Source: an uncultured Alphaproteobacteria bacterium
GTDB lineage: Bacteria; Pseudomonadota; Alphaproteobacteria; HIMB59; GCA-002718135
Direction: 5' to 3'
Assembly: GCA_902623255.1 (NCBI GenBank)
Contig: CACNSY010000003.1
Location: forward strand, 1-64,000
Length of the DNA stretch: 64,000 nucleotides
A program made the position numbers and the translations under genes. The notes under the pieces were generated by a model. The model was not told the DNA's origin. It did no database searches and saw only the letters and a list, made by a program, of their open reading frames with translations. Positions 36,337 through 54,730 of this stretch are shown here, piece by piece (within the stretch, counting starts at the first letter, position 1; every line of letters starts with the position of its first letter).

Positions 36337-36351
36337 TTAATCACAAATAAG

Positions 36352-36380
36352 TTGACCAATGAAAATATTTAAGTTTAAAT
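36352..36380 (+). promoter_or_regulatory. Possible promoter before the second aldehyde dehydrogenase
   Basis: TTGACC (36352-36357) and TTAAAT (36375-36380) are 17 nt apart in the 49-nt gap between the GMC and aldehyde dehydrogenase genes. A transcript from here would begin almost at the ATG (36386) and be leaderless. The match is imperfect and could be chance. Confidence 0.28.
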
Positions 36381-36385
36381 AAATT

Positions 36386-37858: not shown

Positions 37859-37859
37859 A

Positions 37860-38799: not shown

Positions 38800-39591
38800 T
38801 TATTCTTTCCAATTTGGTTCTCGTTTTTCTAAAAAAGCATCAATGCCTTCCTTAGAATCATCATGTAACATATTTTCTGTCATTACCTTTGAAGTAAAAG
38901 TATAGGCGTCTTCTAAATTCATTTCTTTTTGTTTGTAAAAAGCTTCTTTACCAATTTTAATAGTATTAGAAGATTTAGAGGATATTTTTTTAGCGATTTG
39001 AAATACATTTTCTTTTAAACTATTTTCTTCAAAGACATCATTTATTAAGCCAATCCTTAATGCTTTATTTGCATCTATAAGATCTCCAGTGAGAAGCATT
39101 TCCATTGCTTGCTTTTTACCTACAGTTCTTGATAATGGAACCATCGGTGTAGAACAAAATAATCCAATATTAACACCAGGGGTTGCATATTTTGCTCTAC
39201 TACTTGAGTAAGCTAAATCGCAGCTAGAAATTAACTGACAGCCTGCTGCAGTAGCGATACCATCGACCATAGCTATAACTGGTTTATTATTTTTATTAAT
39301 TTTCAGCATAAGTTGAGAGCACATTTGAAATATTTTTTTAAAATAGCTTTCACCTTTGTCATTTTGCAATCTTTGTGAATTTAAATCTTTTAAATTATGT
39401 CCTGCACAAAAAATATTACCTTTTGATGATAAAATAATTACTTTTATATCATTATCTTTATCTGCAATGTCTAGCGCTGATGTTAATTCATTGATCATAT
39501 TATCGCTTAAAGTATTTTGGTTTTTCTGATCATTAAGAATAATATTAAAAATTTTATTATTTTTTTCTGTTAATATTAGATTAAAATTCAT
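38800..39591 (-). CDS. Crotonase-fold protein of the ECHDC3 type, lacking both catalytic glutamates
   Basis: This 263-residue protein has the crotonase fold: FCAGHNLKDL near 61 (first oxyanion-hole strand), ATAAGCQLISSCDLA near 113 (second), and YATPGVNIGLFCSTPMVPLS near 135, the mark of ECHDC3-like proteins. The two Glu used by enoyl-CoA hydratase appear as Gln119 and Gly139, so hydration is unlikely as such. The oxyanion hole is kept, so thioester chemistry such as hydrolysis or isomerization remains possible. It is the last gene of the - strand operon, touching the OsmC gene. Confidence 0.85.
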   Translation of the reverse strand: MNFNLILTEKNNKIFNIILNDQKNQNTLSDNMINELTSALDIADKDNDIKVIILSSKGNIFCAGHNLKDLNSQRLQNDKGESYFKKIFQMCSQLMLKINKNNKPVIAMVDGIATAAGCQLISSCDLAYSSSRAKYATPGVNIGLFCSTPMVPLSRTVGKKQAMEMLLTGDLIDANKALRIGLINDVFEENSLKENVFQIAKKISSKSSNTIKIGKEAFYKQKEMNLEDAYTFTSKVMTENMLHDDSKEGIDAFLEKREPNWKE

Positions 39592-40038
39592 TTAATTGAT
39601 TTGAATTTCAACATCTTTGGATAGGGAATTAGCGATAAAACAATACTTATGTGATCTCTCTTTCATCTTTTTCATTTCTTCATCAGTGATAGTAAAATTG
39701 TCTTCAAATACTATAGCTGGATTTAGCTCTATTTTGTTGACGTACATTCTTCCCTCTGCATTTTTTCCTAAATACGAAATTGCTTTATCTTTGTAATTAA
39801 TAACTGGCCATTTCATTTTTGCAGCTAAAGCTAAAAACGTCATCATAAAACAACTACTTACAGCTGCAGCTAGTTTTTGTTCTGGATTAATATTAGTTTC
39901 ACTTCCTCCATAATCTGGAGATGATCCCGCATCAATAGATACATTTTCGTTAAGCATTACTGTGTGATCAGTTAAGTATTTTCCAAATTCGAGTTTTTGA
40001 TCTCCTAACTCCCACTTTAATTCGATCGAATGACTCAT
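39592..40038 (-). CDS. OsmC/Ohr-family peroxiredoxin-like protein
   Basis: I start this gene at 40038, one base after the upstream stop. The longer frame to 40086 would run into the DmdA-like gene. The 148-residue product has the OsmC two-Cys pattern: the first Cys in AAVSSCFMMTFL and the second in SHKYCFIANSL, with ETNINPEQKLAAA between strands. Family members reduce organic peroxides or handle reactive thiols and sulfur compounds. In an operon with methylsulfur-type enzymes, protection from reactive sulfur products is a reasonable guess. Confidence 0.82.
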   Translation of the reverse strand: MSHSIELKWELGDQKLEFGKYLTDHTVMLNENVSIDAGSSPDYGGSETNINPEQKLAAAVSSCFMMTFLALAAKMKWPVINYKDKAISYLGKNAEGRMYVNKIELNPAIVFEDNFTITDEEMKKMKERSHKYCFIANSLSKDVEIQIN

Positions 40039-40039
40039 T

Positions 40040-41161
40040 TTAAGAATAATTAAAAGGTAGTGAGCATACTTTACCTTTTCTCTCAATATTGTCTGGTGTT
40101 AATACGATAACATCCTGCCCATCATTCCAATAATCTCTATCAACCATTGATAGTCCAATATTGATTTTTAAAAATGGTGAATAAATACCAGAGGTGATAT
40201 TACCAATTTGAAATCTATTTTTTGAGTATACAGGAAAAGGAATTGTGCAGGGAGGAGTCGGGGACCCATCAAAAGTAATTCCTTTTATTTTTTTTTCTAT
40301 TCCATTTTTTAATATTTTTTTTAGGGCATGTTTTCCAATGAAATCATGAGATAAATTGTTACAATAATTATCAAATCCACATTCAATTGGATTATTTTCT
40401 AAAGTAAATTCATTACCATAGGATAATAAACCACCTTCTATTCTATCAATTAAATTTGGACATCCAGGTGAAATATTAAAATCTTTTCCTGCGTCCCAAA
40501 TAGTTTCCCAAAGTTTTTTTCCTAAACTAAAACCTTTAAGATAAATCTCAAAACCATCTTGCTTGCTATATCCTGATCTTGCAATTATCTGCTTTGTTCC
40601 TTCAAATTCAAAAAAAGAAAAATGAAAGAATTTTAATTTTTTAATTTTTTCACCAAATATTGATGACATTAATTCTTCAGATTTTGGACCTTGAATTGCT
40701 AGGGGGTATATATCTGGCTCTATAATATCAACTTTAAAGTTTCTTCCTACGGCCAAACCTTTTGCCCAAAGAAGAACATCTGAGTCGGCAACTGATAGCC
40801 AATATTTATTTTCACTTAATTTTAAAAGTACAGGATCATTTATCATCCCTGCATTTTCATCAATCATTGGATAATAGTAACATTTACCAATAGGCATATC
40901 TTTTATTGATCTTGGAGACATGAGTTGTATTAATTTTGCAGCATCTTCTCCTATTATTTGAACCTGACGTTGACATGAAACATCCCAAATTTGAGTATTT
41001 TTAGATAAGTGCCAATAATCTTCTTCTACTGTTGCTTTATACGATTTTGGAAGAAGCATATGATTAACTACAGTAAAACCACTTACACCAGCCTCAATTA
41101 CTTTCTCTGTATAGGGAGTCCTCCTAATACGTCTAGACATGTTTAATCCTGAATTACTCAT
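40040..41161 (-). CDS. dmdA: DmdA-like tetrahydrofolate-dependent demethylase (GcvT fold)
   Basis: This 373-residue protein is colinear with dimethylsulfoniopropionate demethylase as I recall it from SAR11. It has RRIRRTPYTEKV, VNHMLLP, WDVSCQRQVQI, LMSPRSIKDMPIGKCYYYP, ADSDVLLWAKGLA, IQGPKSEELM, RSGYSKQDGFEIYL and SPGCPNLIDRIEGGLLSYGN in order. DmdA moves a methyl from DMSP to tetrahydrofolate, giving methylmercaptopropionate. Close paralogues act on other methylated compounds, so the substrate is not certain. An internal ATG (41140) is an alternative start. It sits between the transthyretin-like and OsmC genes with 0-1 nt gaps. Confidence 0.68.
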   Translation of the reverse strand: MSNSGLNMSRRIRRTPYTEKVIEAGVSGFTVVNHMLLPKSYKATVEEDYWHLSKNTQIWDVSCQRQVQIIGEDAAKLIQLMSPRSIKDMPIGKCYYYPMIDENAGMINDPVLLKLSENKYWLSVADSDVLLWAKGLAVGRNFKVDIIEPDIYPLAIQGPKSEELMSSIFGEKIKKLKFFHFSFFEFEGTKQIIARSGYSKQDGFEIYLKGFSLGKKLWETIWDAGKDFNISPGCPNLIDRIEGGLLSYGNEFTLENNPIECGFDNYCNNLSHDFIGKHALKKILKNGIEKKIKGITFDGSPTPPCTIPFPVYSKNRFQIGNITSGIYSPFLKINIGLSMVDRDYWNDGQDVIVLTPDNIERKGKVCSLPFNYS

Positions 41162-41497
41162 TTATTTAGACCACCATATTGAGTATCCGTTTGGAGAAAT
41201 AATTAAAGGTATGTGATATTTTTTAAGAGGATCTTTCATTTTAAATTTAACACTTATTGAATTAATTATTTCACTAGTATTTCTAAAATATTTACCAGAA
41301 TTAATTATCATTTCATAATCACTTTCACAATCTTCTTTCGTTAATGCAAATTCTTTAAGCATTCTTCCAGAACTATCTGTTTTATCTTCTAGAAATATAA
41401 CTTTGTTATTATTATTTACTTTATAAATAACAATTTCTACATCACTTGCATGCGTACCATCTATTGAGTTTAGTAAATGTGTAGAAAAAATTGCCAT
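41162..41497 (-). CDS. Transthyretin-related / hydroxyisourate-hydrolase-like protein with altered C-terminus
   Basis: This 111-residue protein has the HIU-hydrolase length and layout: FSTHLLNSIDG at 4-14 (H7), DSSGRML near 45 (R45), GKYFRN near 68, and YHIPLIISPNGYS at 94-106 (H95). Three of the usual active-site residues are kept. The hallmark C-terminal YRGS is replaced by IWWSK, so the protein may not act on 5-hydroxyisourate. No urate oxidase or OHCU decarboxylase gene is in the window. It is locked into the operon, 3 nt after the TPP-enzyme gene and touching the DmdA-like gene. Confidence 0.75.
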   Translation of the reverse strand: MAIFSTHLLNSIDGTHASDVEIVIYKVNNNNKVIFLEDKTDSSGRMLKEFALTKEDCESDYEMIINSGKYFRNTSEIINSISVKFKMKDPLKKYHIPLIISPNGYSIWWSK

Positions 41498-41500
41498 AAC

Positions 41501-43243
41501 CTACTCTATAGATGCTTTATCTCTTTTATCACTAACTGCAGCAACTATTGGACTTATAACACCTTTAGCCTTAACATTTACACATGAAGTTTTACCACTT
41601 TCTAACGCTCTTTTTAAAGCAGGGCCTAAATCTTCCCTTTTAGTTACTAATTCTCCATGCCCTCCAAAACCTTCAAAAATTGAATGAAAAGGAATATCTC
41701 TAAAATCAGTTGCAAAGTGTTTCCCACTTTCAAATAACCTCTCTTGTTGTTGAGAAATACAGTCAAGACCTCCATTATTATCTATAACAACAACAATAGG
41801 TTTTTTTTCTTGAAATGCAGCTTCAATTGACAATCCGCCTGATAAAAATGCACCATCTCCACTAATTAAAACAACATTAGATTTAGGATTAAGATTTTTC
41901 GCTGATACTGCGAAAGGAACTCCAACACCTAACATACTGAAAGTGCCTGGATGTAATATTCCTCCAAGTTTTTTACCTTTTGATCCAGCAATATTAATTG
42001 CAATCTCGGACCAGAAATGGGTGTTACCACCATCAATAACTAGCCAATCATTTTCAGTTAATACCTCTTGAACATCTAAAGCTAATTGAAGAGGATGAAT
42101 TTTTCCACCATTTTTTTTGGTCTCTTCAGTTTCTTTATTTAAGTCATCTAATGTTTTATTTATCCAATTTTTTTTCTCTTTTTTATTCTTATTAAACCAT
42201 TCATTGTTTAATTTCCATTTACTGTTTTTCTTTAACTCTATAAGTTTATCCAAAAAAACTCCAGGATCACAAAGTAAGTTAATATCTGCAGCTCTATTTA
42301 ATTCTATTTCTTCATGTGATCCATTAATACAAACAAGCTTAGTGCTTTTTGGAAAAAGTGGAGGATTGCCAAAATTCATTTGATTATCAAGACGTGCACC
42401 AATCATAAGAACCAAATCTGATTCATGAAGAGCCATTTTTGATGGAGGATATTGATGAATATCTGCCAGGCCCATGTATGTATCTGCTTCTTCACCTAAA
42501 AGCTTTTGATGGTATGGTATATTAAATATTGGAATATTTAATTCAAAGCCAGCTTGCTCTAATTTTTTTTCTGCACTAGACCACCAAACACCATGCCCTC
42601 CGATAAAAACAGGTTTTTGTGAATTAATTGCCAGATCAAATATTTCATTTAAACTCTCAGGATCGGGCCAAGCTTTTGCTAAAGGTTTCTTTTGATGAGT
42701 AAAAGGTCTTTCTTCTAAACCTGCATCATCTGCAAATGATGAAAACATTATATCTACTGGTACACTTAAATGTACTGCACCAGGATAGCCATTTGTTGCA
42801 ATTCTATATGCTTTATCTATGAACTCTCTTATTCTATTGCCATCTGTTATACTTGCACTGTATTTTGTTAACGGTGCTGCAATAGATACATCATCTATTT
42901 CCTTAAAACCTCCTGCTCCTTGTCTTTTTAAGCTACTTGATCCAGTTATAAAAATAACAGGTGATCTTTCACCCCATGCTTCCATCATTGAAGGCACTGC
43001 ATTTGCAAAACCTTCTGGCCCGACAATACAAACGGATGGTTTTCTTGATATCCTAGTATGACCATCAGCTAAATGACCAGCAATTTGTTCATGAGGACAA
43101 TTAATTACATTAATTTGACACTCCATAAATCCTTCAAGTGCTGGATTACAAAAACCTCCAGAAAGTGTAAAAACATTATCAATACCTTTGTCTCTAAGAG
43201 CTCTTGCAACTAATGCCCCACCTCTAATCTTTTTGTCTGCCAT
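41501..43243 (-). CDS. TPP-dependent enzyme of the acetolactate synthase / 2-oxoacid decarboxylase superfamily
   Basis: This 580-residue protein has three domains: the PYR domain with catalytic Glu52 (CPHEQIAGHLADGHTR), a central domain with PVFIGGHGVWWS near 212, and the PP domain with the TPP motif GDGAFLSGG near 462 ending NNGG. The superfamily contains acetolactate synthase, benzoylformate decarboxylase, oxalyl-CoA decarboxylase and 2-hydroxyacyl-CoA lyase. It starts one base from the FMN 2-hydroxyacid dehydrogenase stop, which suggests oxidation of a 2-hydroxy acid followed by decarboxylation of the 2-oxo acid. The family does not fix the substrate. Confidence 0.82.
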   Translation of the reverse strand: MADKKIRGGALVARALRDKGIDNVFTLSGGFCNPALEGFMECQINVINCPHEQIAGHLADGHTRISRKPSVCIVGPEGFANAVPSMMEAWGERSPVIFITGSSSLKRQGAGGFKEIDDVSIAAPLTKYSASITDGNRIREFIDKAYRIATNGYPGAVHLSVPVDIMFSSFADDAGLEERPFTHQKKPLAKAWPDPESLNEIFDLAINSQKPVFIGGHGVWWSSAEKKLEQAGFELNIPIFNIPYHQKLLGEEADTYMGLADIHQYPPSKMALHESDLVLMIGARLDNQMNFGNPPLFPKSTKLVCINGSHEEIELNRAADINLLCDPGVFLDKLIELKKNSKWKLNNEWFNKNKKEKKNWINKTLDDLNKETEETKKNGGKIHPLQLALDVQEVLTENDWLVIDGGNTHFWSEIAINIAGSKGKKLGGILHPGTFSMLGVGVPFAVSAKNLNPKSNVVLISGDGAFLSGGLSIEAAFQEKKPIVVVIDNNGGLDCISQQQERLFESGKHFATDFRDIPFHSIFEGFGGHGELVTKREDLGPALKRALESGKTSCVNVKAKGVISPIVAAVSDKRDKASIE

Positions 43244-43244
43244 C

Positions 43245-44408
43245 TTAATACTTTATATCCTTAAAAAATTTCTCTGCTATTATTTTTTTATCAACTTCAT
43301 TTATATCTGTTAACCCCACTAATCCAAGATTTGTACTTAACTCTTCTTTAATTAAGTTAATGATTCTTCTAAGGCCTTTTGCACCATCTGCACCAATGGC
43401 ATACATTAGAGGTCTGCCAAACATAACAAAGTCAGCTCCCAGAGCTAATGCGCGTAAAATATCACTACCACTTCTAATTCCACTATCAAAAAGTATTGGG
43501 AAATCTTCTCCCAAAGCTTTTCGTATTAATGGTAAAGCATTAATAGAAGCAGTAGCACTATCTAATTGTCTTCCACCATGATTTGATACTTGAATTGCAT
43601 CAGCACCTGAGTCTTTAATTTTTAAAGCATCTTCAGAGTTCATGACTCCTTTTATAATTAATTTTCCTTTCCAAGCTTCTCTAATTCTTTTTAAAGTATC
43701 CCAGTCAGTAGTGCCTCTACTTTCTTTTCTTCTAAAAATTTGATCTCCACTTTTTGAAGTAACATAATTCATTGGTTTTGGAGCACCCTTTAATAAAGTT
43801 GTTAAGCTCCATTGAGGATGTAGTGCAAAATCTAAAAATTGTTTTGGACCAATTTTAAAAGGATAACCAAAACCATTTCTATCATCTCTTGCTCTTCTTG
43901 ATAGAATAGGAACGTCTACAGTAAGAATTAAAACTTTATATCCTATACCTTCTGCTCTTTTTAATAATTCCATAATAAATTCTTCACTTTGAAATATGTA
44001 TATTTGCATCCATGAATGACCCTCAGAGAAAGTAAACATATCTTCAAGTGTAGTACTAGAAGCCATTGAAACACATGTAGGGATATTATTATACGCACTT
44101 TCCTTTGCTATCATTTTATCTGCCTCAGGCCATGAGAGATTAGTCATTCCCATTGGCGCAAATCCAAATGGATAATCAAAATTAAAATCGAATATTTTTT
44201 TACTTAAATTTCTATTCTCGACATTTCTAAAAACCTTTGGTTCAAGTCTAATCTGATCTAATGCTGTACTATTAATTTCAGCAAGTTTATCATCTCCTGA
44301 TGCGCCATCAATGAAATCAAAGACTAATTTTGGCAATCTTTTTTTAGACAATTTAATTGCATCATCTATTGTATGGATTTTAGTGCTAGGTTTAATGAGA
44401 TCTTTCAT
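43245..44408 (-). CDS. FMN-dependent alpha-hydroxyacid dehydrogenase/oxidase
   Basis: This 387-residue TIM-barrel protein matches LldD, glycolate oxidase and mandelate dehydrogenase. It has FAPMGMTNLSWPEAD near 77, MQIYIFQ near 133, LTVDVPILSRRARDDRNG near 156, the catalytic His in VSNHGGRQLDS near 274, and FDSGIRSGSDI with ALGADFVMFGRPL near 307-330 for the FMN phosphate. It oxidizes a 2-hydroxy acid to the 2-oxo acid. The N-terminal substrate-binding Tyr of the family (DYY or DYL) appears as Phe32, so an unusual substrate is possible. Confidence 0.9.
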   Translation of the reverse strand: MKDLIKPSTKIHTIDDAIKLSKKRLPKLVFDFIDGASGDDKLAEINSTALDQIRLEPKVFRNVENRNLSKKIFDFNFDYPFGFAPMGMTNLSWPEADKMIAKESAYNNIPTCVSMASSTTLEDMFTFSEGHSWMQIYIFQSEEFIMELLKRAEGIGYKVLILTVDVPILSRRARDDRNGFGYPFKIGPKQFLDFALHPQWSLTTLLKGAPKPMNYVTSKSGDQIFRRKESRGTTDWDTLKRIREAWKGKLIIKGVMNSEDALKIKDSGADAIQVSNHGGRQLDSATASINALPLIRKALGEDFPILFDSGIRSGSDILRALALGADFVMFGRPLMYAIGADGAKGLRRIINLIKEELSTNLGLVGLTDINEVDKKIIAEKFFKDIKY

Positions 44409-44444
44409 TTTAATATTTGTATTCTAATATAATTTATAATTCTA

Positions 44445-45686
44445 TTACAAAATATATGAGTTTTTTGAAATACCCTTCCAAGGTATTGGACCTGATGGGA
44501 TATCTTCTTTTAAACCTCTTTGTATTTCACCTTTCTCATCATACATTGGTAAAGTACAGATTTCACCTTTTTGCAAACTGCCATCATCACAACTAACATC
44601 TACTATTGTTCCTGGAGAAAATTCTGCATTTTCCATATGGACTATAGCAACACCACAAACTTGAAATGGCGACCATGTACTTGAAGTTACAATCCCAACT
44701 TTTTTATTATCAATAGAAATTTCAGAATCAACCAACGCAAAACTATTTTCCACTCTCATACCCCATGTTAAACAATCTTTGCTTGCATTAAGTAAATAAT
44801 CTCTTCCAATAAAATCTCCTTTATTAAAATCTATAAATTTTCCTAATCCAACAGCAAATGGAGATCTGTCTCTTGTAAAATCTCTCCCTGCTGATAAGAG
44901 ACCTGCCTCAATTCTTCTACATCTAAATCCTGGTGAGGCTGTTAGAATCATTCCCATTTCCTCACCTTTACTGAGTATTAAGTCTCCAATTTTTTTTGAA
45001 TCATTTTCTGGTCTTAAATAAATTTCCCAGCCAAGTTCATTTGTAAACCCTGTTCTGCTTATAATCACTTCTTCTGAATTAATTGAAGTTTCAACCCAAT
45101 CAAAATAATTAAAATTATTTTTTAATGGTTTATCAACTAGTTTTTCTAAAAGTTTTATAGATTTAGGGCCTTGTATTTGACTTACCCAAACGTTTGGATC
45201 TTTAATTTCAACATCTAAATTTTTCGAATGAGCTTTGTACCAACTATATAAATGTCCATCACCTTGTGCAAACCAAAATTTATTTTTTTCTAATCTTAAT
45301 AATAATCCATCTGAAATCATTCCTCCATCATGGTAACAAGCAAATTGATAAGAACATCGTCCTATTTTTACTTTTGAAATATCTCTAGGAAATATTTGTT
45401 GAAGTAAATTTTCAGCATCCGGACCAGAGATTTCGTATGGATGCTCACCTGTATGACGTAAAATTATTTCTTGTCTAGCTTTCCAATACATTTCATCTGC
45501 TGTAGCATGAGATAATTTTTCAAGTGTAAATCTACCATCGGCGTAGTTAGTATATTCTGGGTTAAGTGGTAACTCTTGATATGTAAGAGGGTGTATTTTC
45601 ATGGGTCTAGCCAAATCTAAAGATCTACCAGTTTCCTTAATAACTGGCTTTACAACAAATCTATAATTACTAACTAAATCTCCCAT
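44445..45686 (-). CDS. GcvT-like aminomethyltransferase / folate-dependent demethylase
   Basis: This 413-residue protein shares the GcvT fold, with RHTGEHPYEISGPDAENLL near 75, SQIQGPKS near 168, SRTGFTNELGWEIYL near 209, FRCRRIEAGLLSAGRDFTRD near 254 and SPFAVGLGKFIDF. It is a paralogue of the DmdA-like gene but clearly distinct, with extra residues at both ends. Such proteins pass a methyl or methylene group to tetrahydrofolate. It lies between the homocysteine methyltransferase and FMN oxidase genes, with short gaps. Two folate methyl acceptors in one locus suggest a multiply methylated substrate. Confidence 0.8.
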   Translation of the reverse strand: MGDLVSNYRFVVKPVIKETGRSLDLARPMKIHPLTYQELPLNPEYTNYADGRFTLEKLSHATADEMYWKARQEIILRHTGEHPYEISGPDAENLLQQIFPRDISKVKIGRCSYQFACYHDGGMISDGLLLRLEKNKFWFAQGDGHLYSWYKAHSKNLDVEIKDPNVWVSQIQGPKSIKLLEKLVDKPLKNNFNYFDWVETSINSEEVIISRTGFTNELGWEIYLRPENDSKKIGDLILSKGEEMGMILTASPGFRCRRIEAGLLSAGRDFTRDRSPFAVGLGKFIDFNKGDFIGRDYLLNASKDCLTWGMRVENSFALVDSEISIDNKKVGIVTSSTWSPFQVCGVAIVHMENAEFSPGTIVDVSCDDGSLQKGEICTLPMYDEKGEIQRGLKEDIPSGPIPWKGISKNSYIL

Positions 45687-45727
45687 AAAATATATTCAAC
45701 TTATCACAAAATAATTAAAAAAAAATT

Positions 45728-46651: not shown

Positions 46652-46676
46652 TTTTTTGGAAGATTAGTAGAAATAG

Positions 46677-46700
46677 TGTGGCGCATTTAAATGCGCCACA
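46677..46700. promoter_or_regulatory. 24-nt perfect inverted repeat after the binding-protein gene
   Basis: TGTGGCGCATTT (46677-46688) is followed directly by its exact reverse complement (46689-46700). It is far more GC-rich than its surroundings. It lies 15 nt past the binding-protein stop and 25 nt before the methyltransferase start. No long T-run follows on the - strand, so it looks more like an RNA processing or partial-termination stem than a full terminator. That would let the binding protein be made in excess. Confidence 0.7.
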
Positions 46701-46715
46701 AAGAAAATTAATATT

Positions 46716-48344
46716 TTATGCAAACCACCAACGTTCAGAAAGTTTGTTACCGTCACTTTCCCAGTTACCAGCAACATCTTCACCGTGAGCAAGTTTTTTA
46801 GAACCAGCACCAACGTATTGGTTAAATGCATAAACAATTGCACCACCATCGTAGTTACAAAGAGCTTGTGCTTCCCAGTACATTGATTTTCTTTTTTCTG
46901 CATCAAGTTCTGATCTAGCAGATCTAACAAGTTCATTGAAACGAACAGTTGAATCAGTTTGAACTAGATTACCCCAAGCAGCTTCGTTCCACTCTGTGTC
47001 ATCTGTGAATGCAGCAGACCACATCATATCTTCTGTAGGTCTTCCACCCCAAGAACTCATACTGAAACCTTTAGTGTTCCATACGTTACTCCAGTAACCA
47101 TCTTCTGGTTCTTTTTTAACTCGAAGATCGATACCACATTCTTGAGCAGATGCTGCTATCAAGTTAGTTGCATCTGTACATCCTGCATAAGGAACCTCAG
47201 AAGTACTAATTTCAATTGGTCCACTTACTCCAGATTTTTTCCAGTGATAAGCAGCTTTATCAGCATCGAACTCTCTCTGCTCTAAAGCGCTATTATGGTA
47301 TGGGTGAGCAGTAGAGATCGGATGATCATTACCAACAGTACCATATCCAAGCATAATCTTATCAACAATTTCCTGTCTTTTGATTGCAAACTTCATTGCC
47401 ATACGCACATCAAAGTTATCAAACGGTGGAACGTTCAATCTCATTGGAGCTGTATAGTGAGCGTAACCAGAAGCTGCTGTAATTTCTACACTAGGATTTC
47501 TAGTCAATAGATTAGCAGTTCTAAGATCAACACCATTCATCCAGTCAATTTCACCATTTAATAATGCTGCTTGTCTAGTAGCAGGATCATTAATTCCGAT
47601 TACTTCAACTGAATCAAAGTGTGCAACACTATCACCTTTGAAATAATTTGGATTTCTTTTTCCAAATTTTGCACCAACACCAGGATTGAATTCATCCATA
47701 ATATATGGACCAGTTCCAATCGTTGATTGAGCATCAACAACTCCATCTTTTGTTGGTTTGATCATAATGTGATAGTCAGTAGTTATTGCAGGCCAATCGG
47801 CATTTGCACCTTTTAGCTTAAAAATAACTCTGTCATTTCCATCAGCAGAAACTGTTTCAATTTGAGATAAAAGTCCACCTGCTGCCGAAGCAGTATCTGG
47901 ATTCATATGATACTGATAGTTGAGCACAACATCTTCTGCTGTCATTGATTTACCATTATGGAATTCAACACCTTTGCGAAGATTATATACCCATGTTTGA
48001 GCATCGTCTGATTCAATTGACTCAGCAAGCTCTCCAACAATTGTATGATCTGAATCAACAACAGTTAGACAGTTCTGATATGACCAAGCAGTAGCTTGCA
48101 TAAATGAGCTCTGATAAGTTGCTGGATCAAGAGTATCAGTTGCATCTGCTGCACTATTACCCCATCTTAAATGTCCACCTTTTTTTGGTGTAGCTGCAAC
48201 TGCTTTATCTGCTAATGATAATGCAATTGGTAGCGTGACCCCAGTAGCAAGGACAGACATCATGAACTGTCTTCTATCAATAAGCCCTTTTGTTAGCTTT
48301 GAAGACTGTTCTTCAATGTATTTGTCTATTTTCTTATTTTTCAT
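46716..48344 (-). CDS. ABC transporter periplasmic binding protein, family 5 (dipeptide/oligopeptide type), Tat-exported
   Basis: I start this gene at 48344, where GGGAGG (48349-48354) precedes the ATG by 4 nt. The frame could extend to 48440 but has no such site. The 542-residue product has a Tat signal (LIDRRQFMMSVLATG near 25-40, ending AVAA). The family 5 body shows LRWGNSAADATDTLDPATY, VYNLRKGVEFHNGKSMTAEDV and IGTGPYIMDEF. It binds a solute for the divergent permease and ATPase genes. Family 5 covers peptides, opines, nickel and various osmolytes, so the substrate is open. Confidence 0.9.
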   Translation of the reverse strand: MKNKKIDKYIEEQSSKLTKGLIDRRQFMMSVLATGVTLPIALSLADKAVAATPKKGGHLRWGNSAADATDTLDPATYQSSFMQATAWSYQNCLTVVDSDHTIVGELAESIESDDAQTWVYNLRKGVEFHNGKSMTAEDVVLNYQYHMNPDTASAAGGLLSQIETVSADGNDRVIFKLKGANADWPAITTDYHIMIKPTKDGVVDAQSTIGTGPYIMDEFNPGVGAKFGKRNPNYFKGDSVAHFDSVEVIGINDPATRQAALLNGEIDWMNGVDLRTANLLTRNPSVEITAASGYAHYTAPMRLNVPPFDNFDVRMAMKFAIKRQEIVDKIMLGYGTVGNDHPISTAHPYHNSALEQREFDADKAAYHWKKSGVSGPIEISTSEVPYAGCTDATNLIAASAQECGIDLRVKKEPEDGYWSNVWNTKGFSMSSWGGRPTEDMMWSAAFTDDTEWNEAAWGNLVQTDSTVRFNELVRSARSELDAEKRKSMYWEAQALCNYDGGAIVYAFNQYVGAGSKKLAHGEDVAGNWESDGNKLSERWWFA

Positions 48345-48545
48345 TTGTCCTCCCTTATAATTGAACAAAAACCTAAGATTTTTGTTCATAATTTCTAGAA
48401 ATTTAACAAAAAACAAACTTAAGTTAATATATAAAAACATATATAACGTTTTAATTCAACGTATAAATTATTAATTTTAGCTTACATGTTGACCTAATTT
48501 AGACAAAACTTTAAGAATTAAGATTGTATCTTTAAGGAGGGTAAT
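48345..48545. promoter_or_regulatory. Divergent regulatory region between binding-protein and permease genes
   Basis: These 201 nt separate two divergent operons of one uptake system. They hold strong Shine-Dalgarno sites at both ends: GGGAGG for the binding protein and AAGGAGGG at 48534-48541 for the permease. A hairpin lies at 48362-48388 and a 14-nt palindrome AATTTCTAGAAATT at 48390-48403. TTGACC at 48489 could be a -35 box for the permease operon, but the -10 is poor. The palindrome is a candidate operator. Confidence 0.55.
48362..48388 (-). promoter_or_regulatory. Leader hairpin just before the binding-protein Shine-Dalgarno
   Basis: TGAACAAAAA (48362-48371) and TTTTTGTTCA (48379-48388) are exact reverse complements around a 7-nt loop. 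In the binding-protein mRNA the stem would end about 7 nt before the GGGAGG site. It could stabilise the 5' end, tune translation, or act as DNA for a regulator. Confidence 0.5.
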
Positions 48546-49544
48546 ATTAGTAGAATTCATCCAATATTTAGAACAATTTTGTTAAGGCTTAGCCTTGGTC
48601 TCGTTACAGTTTTTGCATTTTCGGTAATAATATTTAGTACATTCTCTTTTTTACCGGGAGACTTTGCCACGGAAATATTAGGTCAAAGTGCAACAAAATC
48701 TGCAGTAAAAGCCCTAAGAGCAGAATTGGGTTTAGATAAACCTCCGGTAACAAGATATTTTGATTGGTTAGGAAATGTTTTTCAAGGAGATTTTGGTAGT
48801 TCTTTCTCTGGAAGATCTAAAGTTCAAGGGGATCAAGGTGATAGGTCTAGAGAAGTTGTTGGTTTAATTGTCCCCAGATTAAAGAATACATTATTTTTAA
48901 CAGGGGTTGCCGCCATGTTGGCTATTCCTCTATCTTTAATCTTAGGTATCTCAGCAGCATTATACAGAAACTCTTATTATGATAGGTCAGCAACTGGAGT
49001 TAGCTTAGTAACCGTATCTTCACCAGAATTTTTTACAGCCTATATTTTTATTCTTTTACTAGCGACACTGTTTCCAGTTTTTCCAACTATTTCTAATGTG
49101 GATGAAGCTTCAACTTTGGCTGAAAGATTTTACAGGACTGCTCTTCCAGTTTTTACTTTGACATTAATTACTATGGGTCACATGATGAGAATGACAAGGT
49201 CAGCGATAATAAATATCTTATCAAGTGAATATATTGAAATGGCAAAATTATCGGGAGCTTCTAGATACGAGGTAATTGTTAAACACGCGCTTCCAAATGC
49301 TTGGGCACCTATTTCTCAAGTAATTGCAATAAACTTAGCTTATATGTTGATTGGCTCAGTTGTTGTTGAATATGTTTTTAACTATCAAGGTATTGGTAGG
49401 TTGATGGTCGGATCAGTCTATAATCGAGATTTACCCGTTGTTCAAGCTTGTGCATTAATTTTTGCATCAACATATGTAATATTAAATTTAATTGCTGACT
49501 TGATCGGAATTATTTCTAACCCAAGGTTACTATATCCCAAATGA
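48546..49544 (+). CDS. ABC transporter inner-membrane permease, DppB type; probable ATT start
   Basis: The only standard start in frame is TTG 48579, which lacks a Shine-Dalgarno and would cut into the expected N-terminus. AAGGAGGG (48534-48541) sits 4 nt before ATT 48546, and reading from there adds SRIHPIFRTIL before LLRLSLGLV, the usual DppB lead-in. An in-frame stop lies at 48519. The protein (332 residues from ATT) has six membrane helices. The coupling block EYIEMAKLSGASRYEVIVKH is near its residue 225. It forms the channel with the next gene. Confidence 0.85.
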   Translation: MSRIHPIFRTILLRLSLGLVTVFAFSVIIFSTFSFLPGDFATEILGQSATKSAVKALRAELGLDKPPVTRYFDWLGNVFQGDFGSSFSGRSKVQGDQGDRSREVVGLIVPRLKNTLFLTGVAAMLAIPLSLILGISAALYRNSYYDRSATGVSLVTVSSPEFFTAYIFILLLATLFPVFPTISNVDEASTLAERFYRTALPVFTLTLITMGHMMRMTRSAIINILSSEYIEMAKLSGASRYEVIVKHALPNAWAPISQVIAINLAYMLIGSVVVEYVFNYQGIGRLMVGSVYNRDLPVVQACALIFASTYVILNLIADLIGIISNPRLLYPK

Positions 49545-50461
49545 GCGAAAATTTATCTTATTCAGCAAAAAGTGAAGTTGCAAATTTAATTAAAAGAAGA
49601 ACTAGATTAGAAAGATTAAAAATTGCCTTATCAAAAGCTCCAATCTCAGCTTGGTTTGGTATGATTGTACTATTTATATATTTTTTTGCTGCAATATTTG
49701 CTCCCTTAATTGCTCCACATGGAGAAGCAGAAATATTCCCAGTAGCTTATGCTCCTTGGGGTGATGGTCATATATTTGGTACTGATCAAATTGGAAGAGA
49801 TATTTTTTCTCGCATTATCTATGCTGCAAGAAATACAATTGGTATTTGTTTATTGGCTACTTTTATTGCTTTAGGAATTGGAACAGTATTTGGAATTATA
49901 GCTGCTCTGGATAGAAGGTATTTAGATCAGCTATTAAGTAGAATAGTAGACACGCTTATGGCTATACCTGTAATGATTTTTACTTTTATACTTTTATCAG
50001 TTTTTGGACCTACTAATTTTAATTTAATTGTCATTTTAGGAATTTTGGAGTCAACTAGATTTTTTAGAATATCAAGATCAGTTGCTGTTGGTCAAGTTGT
50101 TCTAGAATATGTAGAGGTTGCGAGATTAAGAGGTGAAAATTTATCATATATTATTTTCAGAGAAATACTTCCTAATATAGCTTCACCTTTGATTATTGAG
50201 TTTGGTTTAAGGTTCATATTTATAATTTTTACAATATCTAGTTTAAGTTTTTTAGGAATTGGTATTCAACCCCCTTCTGCAGATTGGGCATCAATGGTGA
50301 GGGAAAATGCAATACTTATTCAATATGCGCAATATGATATAACAGCAGGTTTAACACCATTAATTCCAGCTGCTGCAATTGCTTTACTTTGTGTATCAAT
50401 TAATTTTGTTGTTGATTGGTATCTTTACATTACTAGCGGATTAAAAGATGACGTCAAATAA
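49541..50461 (+). CDS. ABC transporter inner-membrane permease, DppC type
   Basis: This 306-residue protein has an N-terminal helix near 38-60, then HIFGTDQIGRDIFSRIIYAA near 77, five more helices, and the ATPase-contact loop EYVEVARLRGENLSYIIFRE near 190. This is the DppC/OppC partner of the preceding DppB-type protein. It overlaps both neighbours (4 nt upstream, 14 nt downstream). It completes the membrane channel for the solute bound by the divergent binding protein. Confidence 0.92.
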   Translation: MSENLSYSAKSEVANLIKRRTRLERLKIALSKAPISAWFGMIVLFIYFFAAIFAPLIAPHGEAEIFPVAYAPWGDGHIFGTDQIGRDIFSRIIYAARNTIGICLLATFIALGIGTVFGIIAALDRRYLDQLLSRIVDTLMAIPVMIFTFILLSVFGPTNFNLIVILGILESTRFFRISRSVAVGQVVLEYVEVARLRGENLSYIIFREILPNIASPLIIEFGLRFIFIIFTISSLSFLGIGIQPPSADWASMVRENAILIQYAQYDITAGLTPLIPAAAIALLCVSINFVVDWYLYITSGLKDDVK

Positions 50462-52061
50462 ATCAAAAGAACTCCTGCTTGAAATGAAAAATATCCATAT
50501 TGATGGATTTTCAGATGAGAGATGGCATAAAATTTTAAAAGGTGTAGATTTGACTTTACACAGAGGAGAAATACTAGGATTAATTGGAGAGAGTGGTGCC
50601 GGAAAATCTACTATGGGTAAAGCTGCAATGGGCTATACCCAACCAGGTTGTAAGATTATAAAGGGAGAAATTAATTTTAATGGCATAGACCTCGCTAAAC
50701 TAACTGAATTTGAAAAGAGAAAAATTTGGGGAACTAAAATATCTTATGTTGCACAATCAGCAGCAGCATCTTTTAATCCTGCTCATAGATTAATGGATCA
50801 AACAATAAGTGCCGCTAATAGATTAAAGATAAATCCCACGGATGTATTAAAAAAAGATGCTGTGCAACTTTATGAATCACTACAGCTTCCAGATGCGGAA
50901 AATATAGGAGATAGATACCCGCACCAAGTATCAGGAGGTCAACTTCAAAGAATAATGACAGCTATGGCTATGTCACCAAGACCAGAGTTAATAATATTTG
51001 ATGAACCAACTACTGCCTTAGATGTTACTACTCAGGTAGAAGTATTATCTGCTATGAGATCTATAGTAGACAAATTTAATACAGCAGCAATTTATATTAC
51101 TCATGATTTAGCCGTAGTTGCTCAAATGGCTGATAGAATTAAAGTTTTGCGATACGGTGAAGAAGTTGAAGAAGCTGAAACAAGAGATATGCTATCAAAC
51201 CCAAAAGAAGAATACACTAAATCTCTATGGTCAGTAAGATCACTGATCAAGCCTGAAGAAACAAATGAAGATTATATGTTGTCCATTAAAAATATTGATG
51301 CAGCATATGGCTCATCGAAGGTCTTACACAATGTTTCTATAGATATTCCTAAAGGTAAAACAGTAGCTATAGTTGGCGAAAGTGGATCGGGAAAATCAAC
51401 AACAGCAAGAGTAATTACAGGCTTACTTCCTCAATTAAAAGGAGAAATAATTTTTGATGGAAAAAAATTGTCTCCAAAACTTGAACAAAGGTCAAAAGAA
51501 GAATTAAGAAGAATTCAAATAATTTTTCAAATGCCTGATACTGCAATGAACCCCCGTCAAACTGTTGATGAAATAATAGGAAGGCCAATAGAATTTTATC
51601 AAGGTATAAAAGGGAAAGAAAGAGAAGCAAAAGTTATTGAATTATTAAAAATGATTGAACTAGATGAAACTTTTTTAGATAGATTACCATCCGAATTATC
51701 TGGAGGTCAAAAACAGAGAATATGCATTGCAAGAGCTTTAGCGGCTAACCCAGATTTAATTATTTGTGATGAAGTAACATCAGCGCTAGATCAAATTGTT
51801 CAAGAAGGAATATTAAAATTACTCCAAAAATTACAAAAAGATCTTGGTGTTACTTATATTTTTATAACCCATGATATAGCAACGGTTAAAGCAATCTCAG
51901 ATGAAATAGTTGTTATGTATCAAGGTGAGGTAGTGGAACAGGGTTTGAAAAGTAAAATTTTGAATCCACCATATCCTGATTATACAGAACTTTTATTGTC
52001 TTCAGTCCCAGAAATGGATCCTGATTGGCTAACCAATCTTCTGAATAAAAGATCTTCCTAG
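50448..52061 (+). CDS. Double ABC ATPase (DppD-DppF fusion)
   Basis: This 537-residue protein has two nucleotide-binding domains. The first has Walker A GESGAGKST near 46, signature VSGGQLQR near 162 and Walker B LIIFDEP. The second has Walker A GESGSGKST near 310, signature LSGGQKQR near 420 and Walker B LIICDEV. Both keep the switch His (YITHDLA and FITHDIA). As one chain it replaces the usual DppD and DppF pair and powers the two permeases. Confidence 0.92.
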   Translation: MTSNKSKELLLEMKNIHIDGFSDERWHKILKGVDLTLHRGEILGLIGESGAGKSTMGKAAMGYTQPGCKIIKGEINFNGIDLAKLTEFEKRKIWGTKISYVAQSAAASFNPAHRLMDQTISAANRLKINPTDVLKKDAVQLYESLQLPDAENIGDRYPHQVSGGQLQRIMTAMAMSPRPELIIFDEPTTALDVTTQVEVLSAMRSIVDKFNTAAIYITHDLAVVAQMADRIKVLRYGEEVEEAETRDMLSNPKEEYTKSLWSVRSLIKPEETNEDYMLSIKNIDAAYGSSKVLHNVSIDIPKGKTVAIVGESGSGKSTTARVITGLLPQLKGEIIFDGKKLSPKLEQRSKEELRRIQIIFQMPDTAMNPRQTVDEIIGRPIEFYQGIKGKEREAKVIELLKMIELDETFLDRLPSELSGGQKQRICIARALAANPDLIICDEVTSALDQIVQEGILKLLQKLQKDLGVTYIFITHDIATVKAISDEIVVMYQGEVVEQGLKSKILNPPYPDYTELLLSSVPEMDPDWLTNLLNKRSS

Positions 52062-52079
52062 TAATCAATATTTTAAATA

Positions 52080-52346
52080 ATGAATATATTTAAATTTTTA
52101 CTTAATTTTTTTTCTAGCAAAGAAAATAGAATAGATAATCTAGAAGCAAAAAATATAATGATAATTGAGAAAAGTTTTAATAAAGATAATTTAACATTAG
52201 GTTCTATTTACAAAGTAAATCAAAATATAAAACTAAAATATTTTAAAAATAAAATTCTTGAAGACAACTTAACAATAGTAGTTACTGACAATAAAGGTAA
52301 AACTATTGGATATATTTCTAAAAAAGAGATAGATAATATTCAATAA
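52080..52346 (+). CDS. Small protein of unknown function
   Basis: This 88-residue protein lies 18 nt after the ATPase gene and abuts the SDR gene. It has a short hydrophobic, basic N-terminus and a C-terminal part, TIVVTDNKGKTIGYISKKE, that loosely recalls HIRAN-type beta strands. I do not recognise the family. Its place inside an uptake and oxidation operon implies co-expression with the transporter. It is not an obvious secreted or membrane protein. Confidence 0.55.
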   Translation: MNIFKFLLNFFSSKENRIDNLEAKNIMIIEKSFNKDNLTLGSIYKVNQNIKLKYFKNKILEDNLTIVVTDNKGKTIGYISKKEIDNIQ

Positions 52347-53129
52347 ATGAAAATTAATCTTAGTAAAAAAAATTATATTATTTCTGCTGGTGCAGATGGC
52401 TTAGGTTTTGCAATAGCAGATAAAATAATCAGTTCAGGTGGAAAAGTATATTTATCTGATATAAATAAATCAAAAATTGATAAAATAAATTCAAATAAAA
52501 AATATCGTAATAAAATATTTGCTAAACATTTAGACTGCACAAATCCAAAAGACATTAAAGAATATTTTAAATCTCTATCTAACTTAAAAAAAATAGATGG
52601 ATTAATAAATAATATAGGTATTGCAGGACCTACAAAGTATCTTCAAAATATTTCAATAGATGAATGGGATAACACAATAAAAACCAATTTAAGTTCACAT
52701 TTTTATTTTGCAAAGTTTGCTATTCCATTTTTAAAAAAAGCTAAAAAAGGATCTATTATTAATTTATCTTCAACTGCAGGATTATATGGTTTTGCTCAAC
52801 GTTCACCATATGCATCAAGTAAATGGGCAATAATTGGATTAACTAAAACATTAGCAGTTGAATTAGGAAAATTTAAAATACGTGTAAATACAATTTGTCC
52901 TGGTTCTGTTAATGGCGATAGAATGGATAGAGTAATAAATGCAAAAGCTAAATTAATTAATTCAACAAATAAACAAGTAAGAAAAGAATTAGAGTCAATG
53001 GTTTCATTAAACACATTTGTAGAAAAAGAAGATATTGCATCAATGGCATTATTTTTATTAAGCGATGCCTCAGAAAATGTATCTGGTCAAATCATGACTG
53101 TAGATGGAAATACTGAAAGAATGAATTAG
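52347..53129 (+). CDS. Short-chain dehydrogenase/reductase
   Basis: This 260-residue SDR has SAGADGLGFAIADKI near 12-26 (glycine motif), NNIGIAGPT near 88, the catalytic Ser in INLSSTAGLYG near 136, the YASSK Tyr/Lys pair near 152, and RVNTICPGSVNGDRM near 176. It interconverts an alcohol and a ketone with NAD(P). It sits between the transporter genes and a GMC oxidase, so it probably acts on the imported compound. Substrate unknown. Confidence 0.88.
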   Translation: MKINLSKKNYIISAGADGLGFAIADKIISSGGKVYLSDINKSKIDKINSNKKYRNKIFAKHLDCTNPKDIKEYFKSLSNLKKIDGLINNIGIAGPTKYLQNISIDEWDNTIKTNLSSHFYFAKFAIPFLKKAKKGSIINLSSTAGLYGFAQRSPYASSKWAIIGLTKTLAVELGKFKIRVNTICPGSVNGDRMDRVINAKAKLINSTNKQVRKELESMVSLNTFVEKEDIASMALFLLSDASENVSGQIMTVDGNTERMN

Positions 53130-54730
53130 TGGATAACAACGCTGACTACATCATTGTTGGAGCAGGGTCAGCAGGTTGTGTTTTAGCTAACAGATTATCT
53201 TCACAATCAAAGAATTCTGTAATTTTATTAGAAGCTGGCCCATCGAGTAATACCTGGAAAGTTGATATGCCAAGCGCACTTCTATATGCAATGCATGATC
53301 CAAAGTATAATTGGAAATATTATACAGAGCCTGAGCCATTTCTAAATAATAGATCTTTATATTGCCCAAGAGGTAAAATGATTGGAGGGTGTTCATCCCA
53401 TAATGGCATGGTTTTTGCAAGAGGTCATAAAGAGGATTTTGATAGATGGTCTTCAAGTGGTTTAACTGATTGGTCGTATGAAAAAGTTATACCTTTTTTT
53501 AAAAAATTAGAAACTTGGTCTCATGATAGTAATCAAAGAGGTAAAGAGGGCCCATTAAAAGTAAATAAATCAAACATAGATAAAAAATATCCTTTATTTA
53601 AAAAAGTTTTAGAAGCTGCACAAGAAGCTGGATATAAAATATTTAATGACTCCAATAATATTGATAATGAAGGTTTTGGAACTTTTGATGTAACAATAAA
53701 CAACGGTGTCAGACAAAGTGTTGCTAAGGCATATTTAGAACCTATCCAAAATAGAAAAAATCTTAGAATAATAAATAATATTGATGTGAAAAAAATTCTT
53801 TTTAAAAATAATACTGCAACTGGTGTTGAAACAATTAAAAAAAATATAACAAATAAATATTTAGCAAATAAAGAAGTTATACTTTGTGCAGGTTCAATTA
53901 ATTCTCCCAAAATTCTTCAATTATCCGGAATAGGTAATGAAAAACATCTTAAAAGCTTGGGAATACAGGTAATTAATAATTTAGTTGGGGTGGGAGAAAA
54001 TTTACAAGATCATTTAGAGATGTATATTCAATATAAATCAAAAAAAAATGAAACATTACATTCTTTAGCAACAAATTTTCTCTATCAAGCAATTGAAGGA
54101 TCAAAATGGTTTTTGTTTAAAAAAGGTAGGTTAGCAAACTCACACTTAGAGTTAGGAGGGTTTGTTAAATCTGACAAATCATATAATCATCCAAACTTAC
54201 AATTTCATTTTTTTCCATACTTAGTTATTAATCATGGTTTAGAAAATCCTAATTTTGAAGCTTTTCAATTTCATGTTTGTCCAAATAGACCAAAAAGTAG
54301 GGGGTTTGTTAAAATTAAAACAAATAACTATAAAGATGATCCTAAAATACAATTTAATTATCTTAAGCATGAAGATGATTTAAAACAAATGAGAGAAGGT
54401 GTGGGAATTGCTAAAAAAATATTATCTCAAAAAGCACTAAAAGAATATGTTGGCACTGAAATTAGGCCTGGGAAGAATGTATCTAATCAAAATGAGTTAG
54501 ATGAAGTTATTAAAAATACATCTGAATCTGCGTATCATCCGTCATGCACAAATAAAATGGGTGAGGACAAAACTTCAGTTGTAGACCAAAACTTAAGGGT
54601 TCATGGAATTCAAAATTTAAGAGTTGTTGATGCTTCTGTAATGCCAGATATTGTTAGTGCTAATTTAAATGCAACAACTATTATGATTGCTGAAAAAGCT
54701 TACGACCAAATAAATAGTACCGTTAGTTAG
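53129..54730 (+). CDS. GMC-family FAD oxidoreductase (choline-dehydrogenase-like)
   Basis: This 533-residue protein starts at GTG, sharing one base with the SDR stop. It has the FAD loop IIVGAGSAGCVLANRLS near 6, PRGKMIGGCSSHNGMVFARG near 88, LCAGSINSPKILQLSGIG near 252, and the active-site block SAYHPSCTNKMGED near 470. It oxidizes an alcohol, possibly one released from the imported solute. It is a distant paralogue of the protein at 34699. It is the last gene of the transporter operon. Confidence 0.88.
   Translation: MDNNADYIIVGAGSAGCVLANRLSSQSKNSVILLEAGPSSNTWKVDMPSALLYAMHDPKYNWKYYTEPEPFLNNRSLYCPRGKMIGGCSSHNGMVFARGHKEDFDRWSSSGLTDWSYEKVIPFFKKLETWSHDSNQRGKEGPLKVNKSNIDKKYPLFKKVLEAAQEAGYKIFNDSNNIDNEGFGTFDVTINNGVRQSVAKAYLEPIQNRKNLRIINNIDVKKILFKNNTATGVETIKKNITNKYLANKEVILCAGSINSPKILQLSGIGNEKHLKSLGIQVINNLVGVGENLQDHLEMYIQYKSKKNETLHSLATNFLYQAIEGSKWFLFKKGRLANSHLELGGFVKSDKSYNHPNLQFHFFPYLVINHGLENPNFEAFQFHVCPNRPKSRGFVKIKTNNYKDDPKIQFNYLKHEDDLKQMREGVGIAKKILSQKALKEYVGTEIRPGKNVSNQNELDEVIKNTSESAYHPSCTNKMGEDKTSVVDQNLRVHGIQNLRVVDASVMPDIVSANLNATTIMIAEKAYDQINSTVS

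Follow-up and report, generated by a model that had tools for sequence, protein, structure and literature searches.

Organization of the locus

The window analyzed here is an AT-rich stretch of 64,000 nucleotides (positions 1 to 64,000 of GenBank contig CACNSY010000003.1, assembly GCA_902623255.1) and forms part of contig C3 in the 1.47-Mb genome of an uncultured alphaproteobacterium of the HIMB59 lineage. It contains a locus whose core is a block of four genes encoding an FMN (flavin mononucleotide) oxidase, a ThDP (thiamine diphosphate) enzyme, a transthyretin (TTR)-like protein and a DmdA-like protein, here termed DmdA2. Open reading frames (ORFs), Pfam and NCBIfam matches placed these genes in two divergent units (Table 1). 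The minus-strand unit, from 48440 to 38800, runs in the order family 5 solute-binding protein (SBP), homocysteine S-methyltransferase family protein (HMT), GcvT-like protein, FMN oxidase, ThDP enzyme, TTR-like protein, DmdA2, OsmC and enoyl-CoA hydratase (ECH). The plus-strand unit, from 48579 to 54730, encodes two permeases, a dual ATPase, an SDR oxidoreductase and a GMC oxidoreductase. All families named in a previous sequence-only reading of this DNA, and their arrangement in two divergent units, were confirmed; the TTR-like protein and ECH had been missed.

Table 1. Predicted genes of the locus and the facing aldehyde dehydrogenase gene (window coordinates)
Product	Coordinates	Strand	Basis
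SBP_bac_5 family 5 solute-binding protein (SBP)	46716..48440	-	Pfam PF00496, 228 bits
ABC permease B	48579..49544	+	PF00528/PF19300
ABC permease C	49541..50461	+	PF00528
Dual ABC ATPase, oligopeptide-type C-terminus	50448..52061	+	PF00005 x2, PF08352
Homocysteine S-methyltransferase family protein (HMT)	45728..46651	-	PF02574, 138 bits
GcvT-like protein (GcvTL)	44445..45686	-	PF01571/PF08669
FMN-dependent 2-hydroxyacid oxidase	43245..44408	-	PF01070, 396 bits
ThDP (TPP) enzyme, benzaldehyde-lyase/2-hydroxyacyl-CoA-lyase type fold	41501..43243	-	PF02776/00205/02775
Transthyretin/HIUase-like protein (TTR-like)	41162..41497	-	PF00576, 70.2 bits
DmdA-like demethylase (DmdA2)	40040..41161	-	NF009133, 533 bits (cut-off 410)
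OsmC-family protein	39592..40038	-	PF02566; ORF opens at TTG 40086, ATG at 40038
Enoyl-CoA hydratase (ECH) family protein, PRK08139	38800..39591	-	NF006008, 367.9 bits (cut-off 313)
SDR oxidoreductase	52347..53129	+	PF13561
GMC oxidoreductase, choline-dehydrogenase-like	53129..54730	+	PF00732/PF05199
Aldehyde dehydrogenase (ALDH), convergent to minus unit	36386..37858	+	PF00171

Conservation of the four-gene block

Relatives of the block were found in SAR11, in SAR116-type genomes and in other alphaproteobacterial families. The survey covered 116 loci, and the denominators given below are the loci with enough sequence. The TTR-like gene directly followed the ThDP gene in 114 of 114 loci, the FMN oxidase gene preceded the ThDP gene in 98 of 106, and a DmdA-like gene followed the ThDP/TTR-like pair in 101 of 108. 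Exceptions came from f175 (0/3 for FMN oxidase and for the DmdA-like gene), f81 (1/4 for each) and family f24 (10/12 and 11/12, respectively). Within the window's lineage, 32 loci have flanks of 7 kb or longer both before and after the ThDP gene, and each of them contained all eleven genes tested (SBP, permease B, ATPase, HMT, GcvT-like, FMN oxidase, ThDP enzyme, TTR-like, DmdA-like, OsmC and ECH). Because these genes are present together in 32/32 loci and the order FMN-ThDP-TTR-DmdA recurs in other families, the locus is not a chance assembly.

Gene order was the same in the twelve loci L013 to L024 as far as each extends, a fatty-acid-hydroxylase gene excepted. A GcvT-like copy at least 75% identical to that of the window was present in at least 38 of 61 same-genus genomes (53-92% complete), its own included, in a search of 101 genomes. 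In L020, L021, L023 and L024, HMT (66-68%) and the GcvT-like protein (78-87%; window 44445-46651 for the pair) were more diverged than most neighbours, suggesting piecewise replacement.

With a separate E-value limit for each search, ThDP enzyme relatives were detected in 6 of 385 sampled genomes of the class and 2 of 398 of the phylum (own genome included in both), in 5/14 and 32/136 genomes of the orders of two of the class-level carriers, and in 12/248 genomes of f24. A scan of species genomes gave at least 556 confirmed relatives; the best 80 of these, assigned by title and similarity, comprised 52 of this lineage (among them L082, which carries a Pelagibacteraceae title) and 28 of SAR11. 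A search of plasmids gave no match to the ThDP enzyme.

DmdA2 forms a clade apart from proven DmdA

DmdA2 scored above the NCBIfam DmdA cut-off, and the block copies listed were 45-49% identical to DmdA of Ca. Pelagibacter ubique HTCC1062 (PDB 3tfh). DmdA is also known from Ruegeria pomeroyi. A phylogenetic tree was built from 56 representatives (33 block copies, 16 canonical DmdA and 7 others). The block copies formed one clade of 33 rows (support 100/95) beside a clade of 16 rows that includes HTCC1062 DmdA (support 97/95). DmdA2 is thus a sister clade apart from experimentally proven DmdA. The window genome encodes a second DmdA (G000:C5:64315-65403, L181) that lies inside the proven clade and is 65.9% identical to HTCC1062 DmdA. 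Two proteins above the cut-off were present in 9/9 same-genus and 4/4 SAR11 genomes searched.

The residue comparison was confined to these two groups and excluded the 7 other rows, of which three are GcvT-like and four belong to a third group. Sixteen alignment positions separated DmdA2 from canonical DmdA, and two changes, Tyr32 to Val and Trp197 to Tyr, were fixed on both sides (33/33 DmdA2 versus 16/16 canonical). In the alignment, the folate-binding Glu and Tyr (E204 and Y206 of 3tfh) were kept. According to PMC7487153, one Trp is key for dimethylsulfoniopropionate (DMSP), and a Glu and a Tyr bind folate; we mapped W171 of that paper to W197 of 3tfh by adding 26 to its numbering, and E204/Y206 likewise. 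DmdA2 therefore shares family, length and folate-binding residues with HTCC1062 DmdA, whereas it differs in its separate, well-supported clade, in the two fixed residues and in being set in an FMN-ThDP-TTR block. Its sequence suggests a role other than DMSP demethylation.

Predicted properties of the FMN oxidase, ThDP enzyme and TTR-like protein

In glycolate oxidase numbering, Y129, R164, K230, H254 and R257 were present in 101 of 101 FMN oxidase orthologues. The window enzyme shares these catalytic residues with glycolate and lactate oxidases, LldD and mandelate dehydrogenase but differs from them at Tyr24, replaced by Phe in 94/101 sequences (3 Tyr, 4 gaps), and at Trp108, replaced by Ala in 100/101 (1 Val). 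These replacements suggest a substrate bulkier than glycolate or lactate. The enzyme scored below the cut-offs for LldD (230 of 550) and lactate oxidase (162 of 645.5). Oxidation of a 2-hydroxy acid, as the sequence-only reading had supposed, was supported by the catalytic residues. Near the block in two f24 loci lie other 2-hydroxyacid-oxidizing families (Ldh_2 in L216, an FAD-linked oxidase in L213), in agreement with this step.

Among solved structures, the ThDP enzyme was nearest in sequence to 2-hydroxyacyl-CoA lyase/synthase (187 bits). Its model (mean pLDDT 73.9) matched the benzaldehyde lyase/formolase fold first and then 2-hydroxyacyl-CoA lyases, with 21-25% identity among the 50 matches listed. 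NCBIfam cut-offs were listed for 25 of 51 families, and the enzyme scored below every one, including 2-hydroxyacyl-CoA lyase (239 of 600) and acetolactate synthase (267 of 587). Across 114 sequences, the window's included, 205 positions were invariant, among them Glu52 and Lys114. The enzyme shares three ThDP domains and the activating Glu with 2-hydroxyacyl-CoA lyase, benzaldehyde lyase and acetolactate synthase; it differs from this group in Lys114, which aligns to the Gln of 2-hydroxyacyl-CoA lyase (HACL)-type enzymes. Glyoxylate carboligase lacks the activating Glu. A glycolate/glyoxylate carboligase pathway was set aside, since the activating Glu is present here and the FMN oxidase pocket is unlike that of glycolate oxidase.

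The TTR-like protein shares PF00576 and a His-Arg-His triad with hydroxyisourate hydrolase (HIUase)/PucM: H7 and R45 were present in 115/115 sequences and H95 in 114/115. In HIUase this triad is catalytic, and YRGS is the C-terminal motif. YRGS was absent; the tail instead reads WxS (W108 in 114/115, S110 in 112/115), an additional His16 is invariant, and the partner gene encodes the ThDP enzyme. The score was under the HIUase TIGR02962 cut-off (71.2 bits of 87.45). Because the triad is kept and the tail is changed, the protein probably retains hydrolase activity, directed at a new substrate. Urate breakdown was set aside: YRGS is missing, and no urate-pathway enzyme was found among the annotated neighbours of the window locus.

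Transporter and methyltransfer genes

The AlphaFold model of the SBP (mean pLDDT 69) gave GsiB/NikA/DppA-type SBPs as best fold matches, which is generic for family 5, and the sequence exceeded none of 11 NCBIfam cut-offs. An internal Met is the probable start of the mature protein, and RRQF reads as a twin-arginine-like signal. HMT contains GGCC and an upstream Cys (SACVSP); it scored below all 5 NCBIfam cut-offs listed (best 86.7 of 215), though above that of PF02574. The GcvT-like protein resembles trimethylamine N-oxide (TMAO) demethylase and DmdA, was below all 8 cut-offs listed, and is probably folate-dependent. The GMC protein exceeded the NF002550 cut-off (701.2; cut-off 605) and fell below that of betA TIGR01810 (626.6; cut-off 732.1).

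In the same-genus genome G031, the transporter, SBP, HMT and GcvT-like genes lie together (L025), and the ThDP-TTR-DmdA2 genes are on another contig (L189), where an ALDH gene again faces the block. The transporter-HMT-GcvT-like group and the block are thus separable modules. Directly after the ATPase gene, L025 encodes a DddP-like M24 protein (1679-2941) that scored 287 bits to 4rzy and was below the NCBIfam DddP cut-off (NF043017, 367 of 600). Its FDTD, HGVG..D and KLED motifs, which presumably hold the functional residues of DddP, align with those of 4rzy. These residue roles are in line with PMC5395565. Of 101 genomes of the genus, 11 carried a DddP-like gene, which adjoined the transporter in 1 of 10 loci checked, that of G031; the other nine contained no such transporter gene within the flanks covered (mostly ~1.5 kb each side, less in L167 and L168). 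The DddP-like gene was therefore dropped as strong evidence for DMSP, given these nine loci and the placement of the G031 block on another contig.

GcvT-like relatives occur in other settings; gene names in L029 and the cluster type in L031 are by sequence reading. In L029 (9680-13217, genome G064) genes resembling trimethylamine monooxygenase and TMAO demethylase flank a relative (37%), and a betaine-type ABC transporter is also present. In L031 (9969-12833, genome G079) a GcvT-like gene, an SDR gene (54% to the window SDR) and a BKACE-family gene lie by a betaine-type transporter, a group resembling a carnitine-type cluster. The window locus shares a transporter and tetrahydrofolate- or homocysteine-linked methyl transfer with Tmm/Tdm TMAO, MtgBCD glycine betaine and SAR11 one-carbon clusters; unlike these, it has a different transporter family and the FMN-ThDP-TTR-DmdA2 block.

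Genes accompanying the block

Neighbours in SAR11 and the SAR116 order were counted in loci flanked by 7 kb or more in both directions. The 21 SAR11 loci encoded a family 5 binding protein (20, not of the window type), a GcvT-like protein (21), an S51 peptidase (21), a thiolase (21) and HMT (1). Because this S51 peptidase lies near the SAR11-type transporter, the reading of an ordinary peptide transporter stays alive. The 15 SAR116-order loci encoded a family 5 binding protein (13), an S51 peptidase (13) and an MttB-family protein (8). MttB was also present in 3 of 8 f24 loci with flanks of that length, and was not found in loci of the window's lineage or SAR11. The window's type of transporter adjoins the block in three lineages: its own, that of G604 (L143; SBP 55% and ATPase 71% alike) and that of G1057 (L222; SBP 52%, ATPase 72%, with a GMC protein 45% alike).

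The smaller groups were more varied. In f81, an asparaginase gene adjoins the ThDP-TTR pair in L042, and L155 contains a TRAP-type transporter (family by sequence reading). PhyH-type dioxygenase genes lie by the pair in all three f175 loci (Pfam for the two of L152; by similarity in L150 and L151). Among f24 loci, L217 encodes an arginase-family protein above the NCBIfam agmatinase cut-off (same cluster in L218), an acyl-CoA dehydrogenase (cluster also in L219) and a proline racemase family protein. BKACE adjoins DmdA2 in L221, and PhyH does so in L220. An acyl-CoA dehydrogenase-type gene, ECH (47%) and a thiolase gene lie near the block in L219, ApbA and FAA-hydrolase genes accompany Ldh_2 in L216, and L218 carries a Cys/Met pyridoxal phosphate enzyme.

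Beyond the minus unit (34699-38795), the window contains GMC, ALDH and fatty-acid-hydroxylase-like genes, all oriented towards the locus. Every one of the 42 loci of this lineage whose sequence extends 4.5 kb or more beyond the ThDP gene had an ALDH gene near the block; the same search gave no match in any SAR11, SAR116-order, f24, f81 or f175 locus. ALDH is possibly part of the pathway. The aldehyde-to-acid step of the sequence-only reading is thus possible in this lineage, but found no counterpart in the other groups. The fatty-acid-hydroxylase-like gene (37860-38795) was kept in L013, L018 and L019 and absent between ALDH and ECH in other relatives. Right after the plus unit, 55039-56478 encodes a ScfRs-domain regulator with helix-turn-helix and Peptidase_M78 domains. 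Positions 1-26000 have a GC content of 18-26%, versus 27-35% elsewhere in the window, and are possibly an island. The window contained no tRNA and no Rfam match at the gathering threshold.

Proposed pathway and alternatives

We propose, with a probability of about one half, that the locus imports and degrades a small methylated onium compound, and that the substrate of DmdA2 is an analogue of DMSP and not DMSP itself. In the suggested order, the family 5 ABC transporter would take up a methylated sulfonium or quaternary ammonium compound, perhaps amide-linked, and one methyl group would pass to homocysteine or folate via HMT/GcvT-like. The FMN enzyme would convert a 2-hydroxy acid to a 2-oxo acid. 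Together with the TTR-like protein, a HIUase-fold hydrolase that constantly accompanies it, the ThDP enzyme would split or decarboxylate the 2-oxo acid to an aldehyde. The aldehyde would be oxidized, perhaps by the nearby ALDH, and DmdA2 would transfer the last onium methyl to tetrahydrofolate. An amide- or ammonium-bearing substrate would agree with the S51, MttB, asparaginase, arginase-family, PhyH and BKACE neighbours no less well than 4-dimethylsulfonio-2-hydroxybutyrate (DMSHB) would. More tentatively, the block may be an undescribed catabolic route for non-DMSP onium zwitterions (e.g. DMSHB, dimethylsulfonioacetate, gonyol or betaine amide), with DmdA2 as the missing demethylase.

Several observations weigh against this proposal. 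ThDP and TTR-like genes stand without FMN oxidase and DmdA2 in 3/3 f175 loci, 3/4 f81 loci and one f24 locus (L223), so the four block genes need not form one pathway. Block counts are not independent, because similarity to the ThDP enzyme was the basis on which the loci were gathered and many of them are closely related. Outside this lineage, no search hit for ALDH or ECH fell near the block, with the exception of ECH in L219. In six SAR116-order genomes (G312, G478, G604, G605, G612 and G618) no protein but the block copy exceeded the DmdA cut-off, the next best scoring ~385 bits or lower, and the argument from a second DmdA fails there. The tree program flagged long branches, and odd composition in six rows, four of which are block rows. 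A GcvT also has Tyr at the W197 position and third-group proteins have Trp; the Trp/Tyr change therefore suggests, but does not prove, another substrate. All substrates and activities named here for genes of the locus are predictions.

The sequence-only reading had named DMSHB, beside other sulfonium or ammonium compounds, as fitting the enzymes. After import, oxidation, decarboxylation and a further oxidation, DMSHB would yield DMSP for demethylation by DmdA; ECH would then serve as the DmdD/AcuH step. The 2-hydroxyacid oxidase, ThDP enzyme, ALDH and ECH of the locus would suit such a route, as would the acyl-CoA dehydrogenase-type, ECH and thiolase genes of L219, the acyl-CoA dehydrogenase of L217 and the DddP-like protein in the transporter operon of G031. 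It is nevertheless improbable, because DmdA2 lies outside the proven clade and lacks the DMSP Trp while a proven-clade DmdA is encoded elsewhere in the genome. The DddP-like protein is below its cut-off and adjoins the transporter in one locus, and the TTR-like, MttB, S51 and arginase-family neighbours are not explained. The DMSHB decarboxylase DsyD belongs to a different family (PMC11306096). An import and demethylation unit for a methylated compound, linked to tetrahydrofolate and homocysteine, was supported, and the general scheme of 2-hydroxy acid oxidation, C-C cleavage and demethylation is plausible and partly supported. DMSP as end-point for the DmdA-like enzyme here is unlikely. That scheme also omits the TTR-like protein, the most constant partner of the ThDP enzyme, and does not account for the S51, asparaginase, arginase-family, MttB and PhyH neighbours in relatives. 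DmdA2 as a divergent DMSP demethylase, in a cluster of ordinary DMSP metabolism and unrelated genes, appears the least probable reading. The DmdA score, the retained folate residues, the six SAR116-order genomes and a statement from genomes that SAR116 demethylates DMSP (PMC12262181) speak for it, whereas the fixed differences at Y32 and W197, the constant FMN-ThDP-TTR company and redundancy with the other DmdA in the window genome and four SAR11 genomes speak against it. Plain DMSP catabolism was accordingly rejected as the principal explanation, since DmdA2 branches separately, has Tyr for Trp and coexists with a second DmdA in this genome; a reservation applies to the six genomes in which no second protein exceeds the cut-off.

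A quaternary ammonium substrate (betaine or betaine amide) instead of a sulfonium is rather unlikely, though better placed than the DMSP-based routes. The MttB genes of SAR116-order and f24 loci, the GcvT-like relatives by Tmm/Tdm-like genes in HIMB59-type genomes (L027 and L029, families by sequence reading) and BKACE beside DmdA2 in L221 would accord with it, and the MttB-family MtgB was reported in glycine betaine demethylation in marine bacteria (PMC12478193). However, MttB was not found in loci of the window's lineage or SAR11, and DmdA is known for a sulfonium. Another possibility is CoA-linked alpha-oxidation, in which the ThDP enzyme would be a 2-hydroxyacyl-CoA lyase releasing an aldehyde and formyl-CoA, with the TTR-like protein acting on a product. 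The closest solved sequence relatives and the PhyH-type dioxygenases by the ThDP-TTR pair in f175 and by DmdA2 in L220 favour it; the fold ranking, the missed cut-offs, Lys114 in place of the HACL-type Gln and an FMN oxidase that would be redundant make it quite improbable.

Implications for DMSP surveys

A literature search found no account of an FMN-ThDP-TTR-DmdA2 block, which is no proof that none exists; the block is not described in the available portions of PMC10308909, PMC8547437, PMC11306096, PMC7487153, PMC5395565, PMC12262181, PMC6309047, PMC3160333, PMC12478193 and PMC7221440. In SAR116, dmdA was assigned to one subgroup (LGC2) only in PMC8547437 and to all subclades but one in PMC12262181; criteria for calling dmdA evidently already differ between papers. 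The SAR116 organism Ca. Puniceispirillum marinum is the source of dmdA subclade B/3 in the survey of PMC6309047. In PMC7221440, an unrecognised bacterial demethylation of dimethylsulfonioacetate was suggested, and DmdA was said not to accept this compound.

A main branch of the marine sulfur cycle, DMSP demethylation is quantified by counting dmdA genes. Because DmdA2 passes the cut-off, surveys with an NCBIfam-type DmdA model may overcount DMSP demethylation, although six SAR116-order genomes have no further protein that passes. If DmdA2 does something else, dmdA-based estimates would be inflated, and a new substrate would have to be named for SAR11, SAR116 and HIMB59-type cells. If the block is a route for non-DMSP onium compounds, that route would be spread through abundant ocean Alphaproteobacteria, and part of the dmdA now counted would not represent DMSP demethylation.

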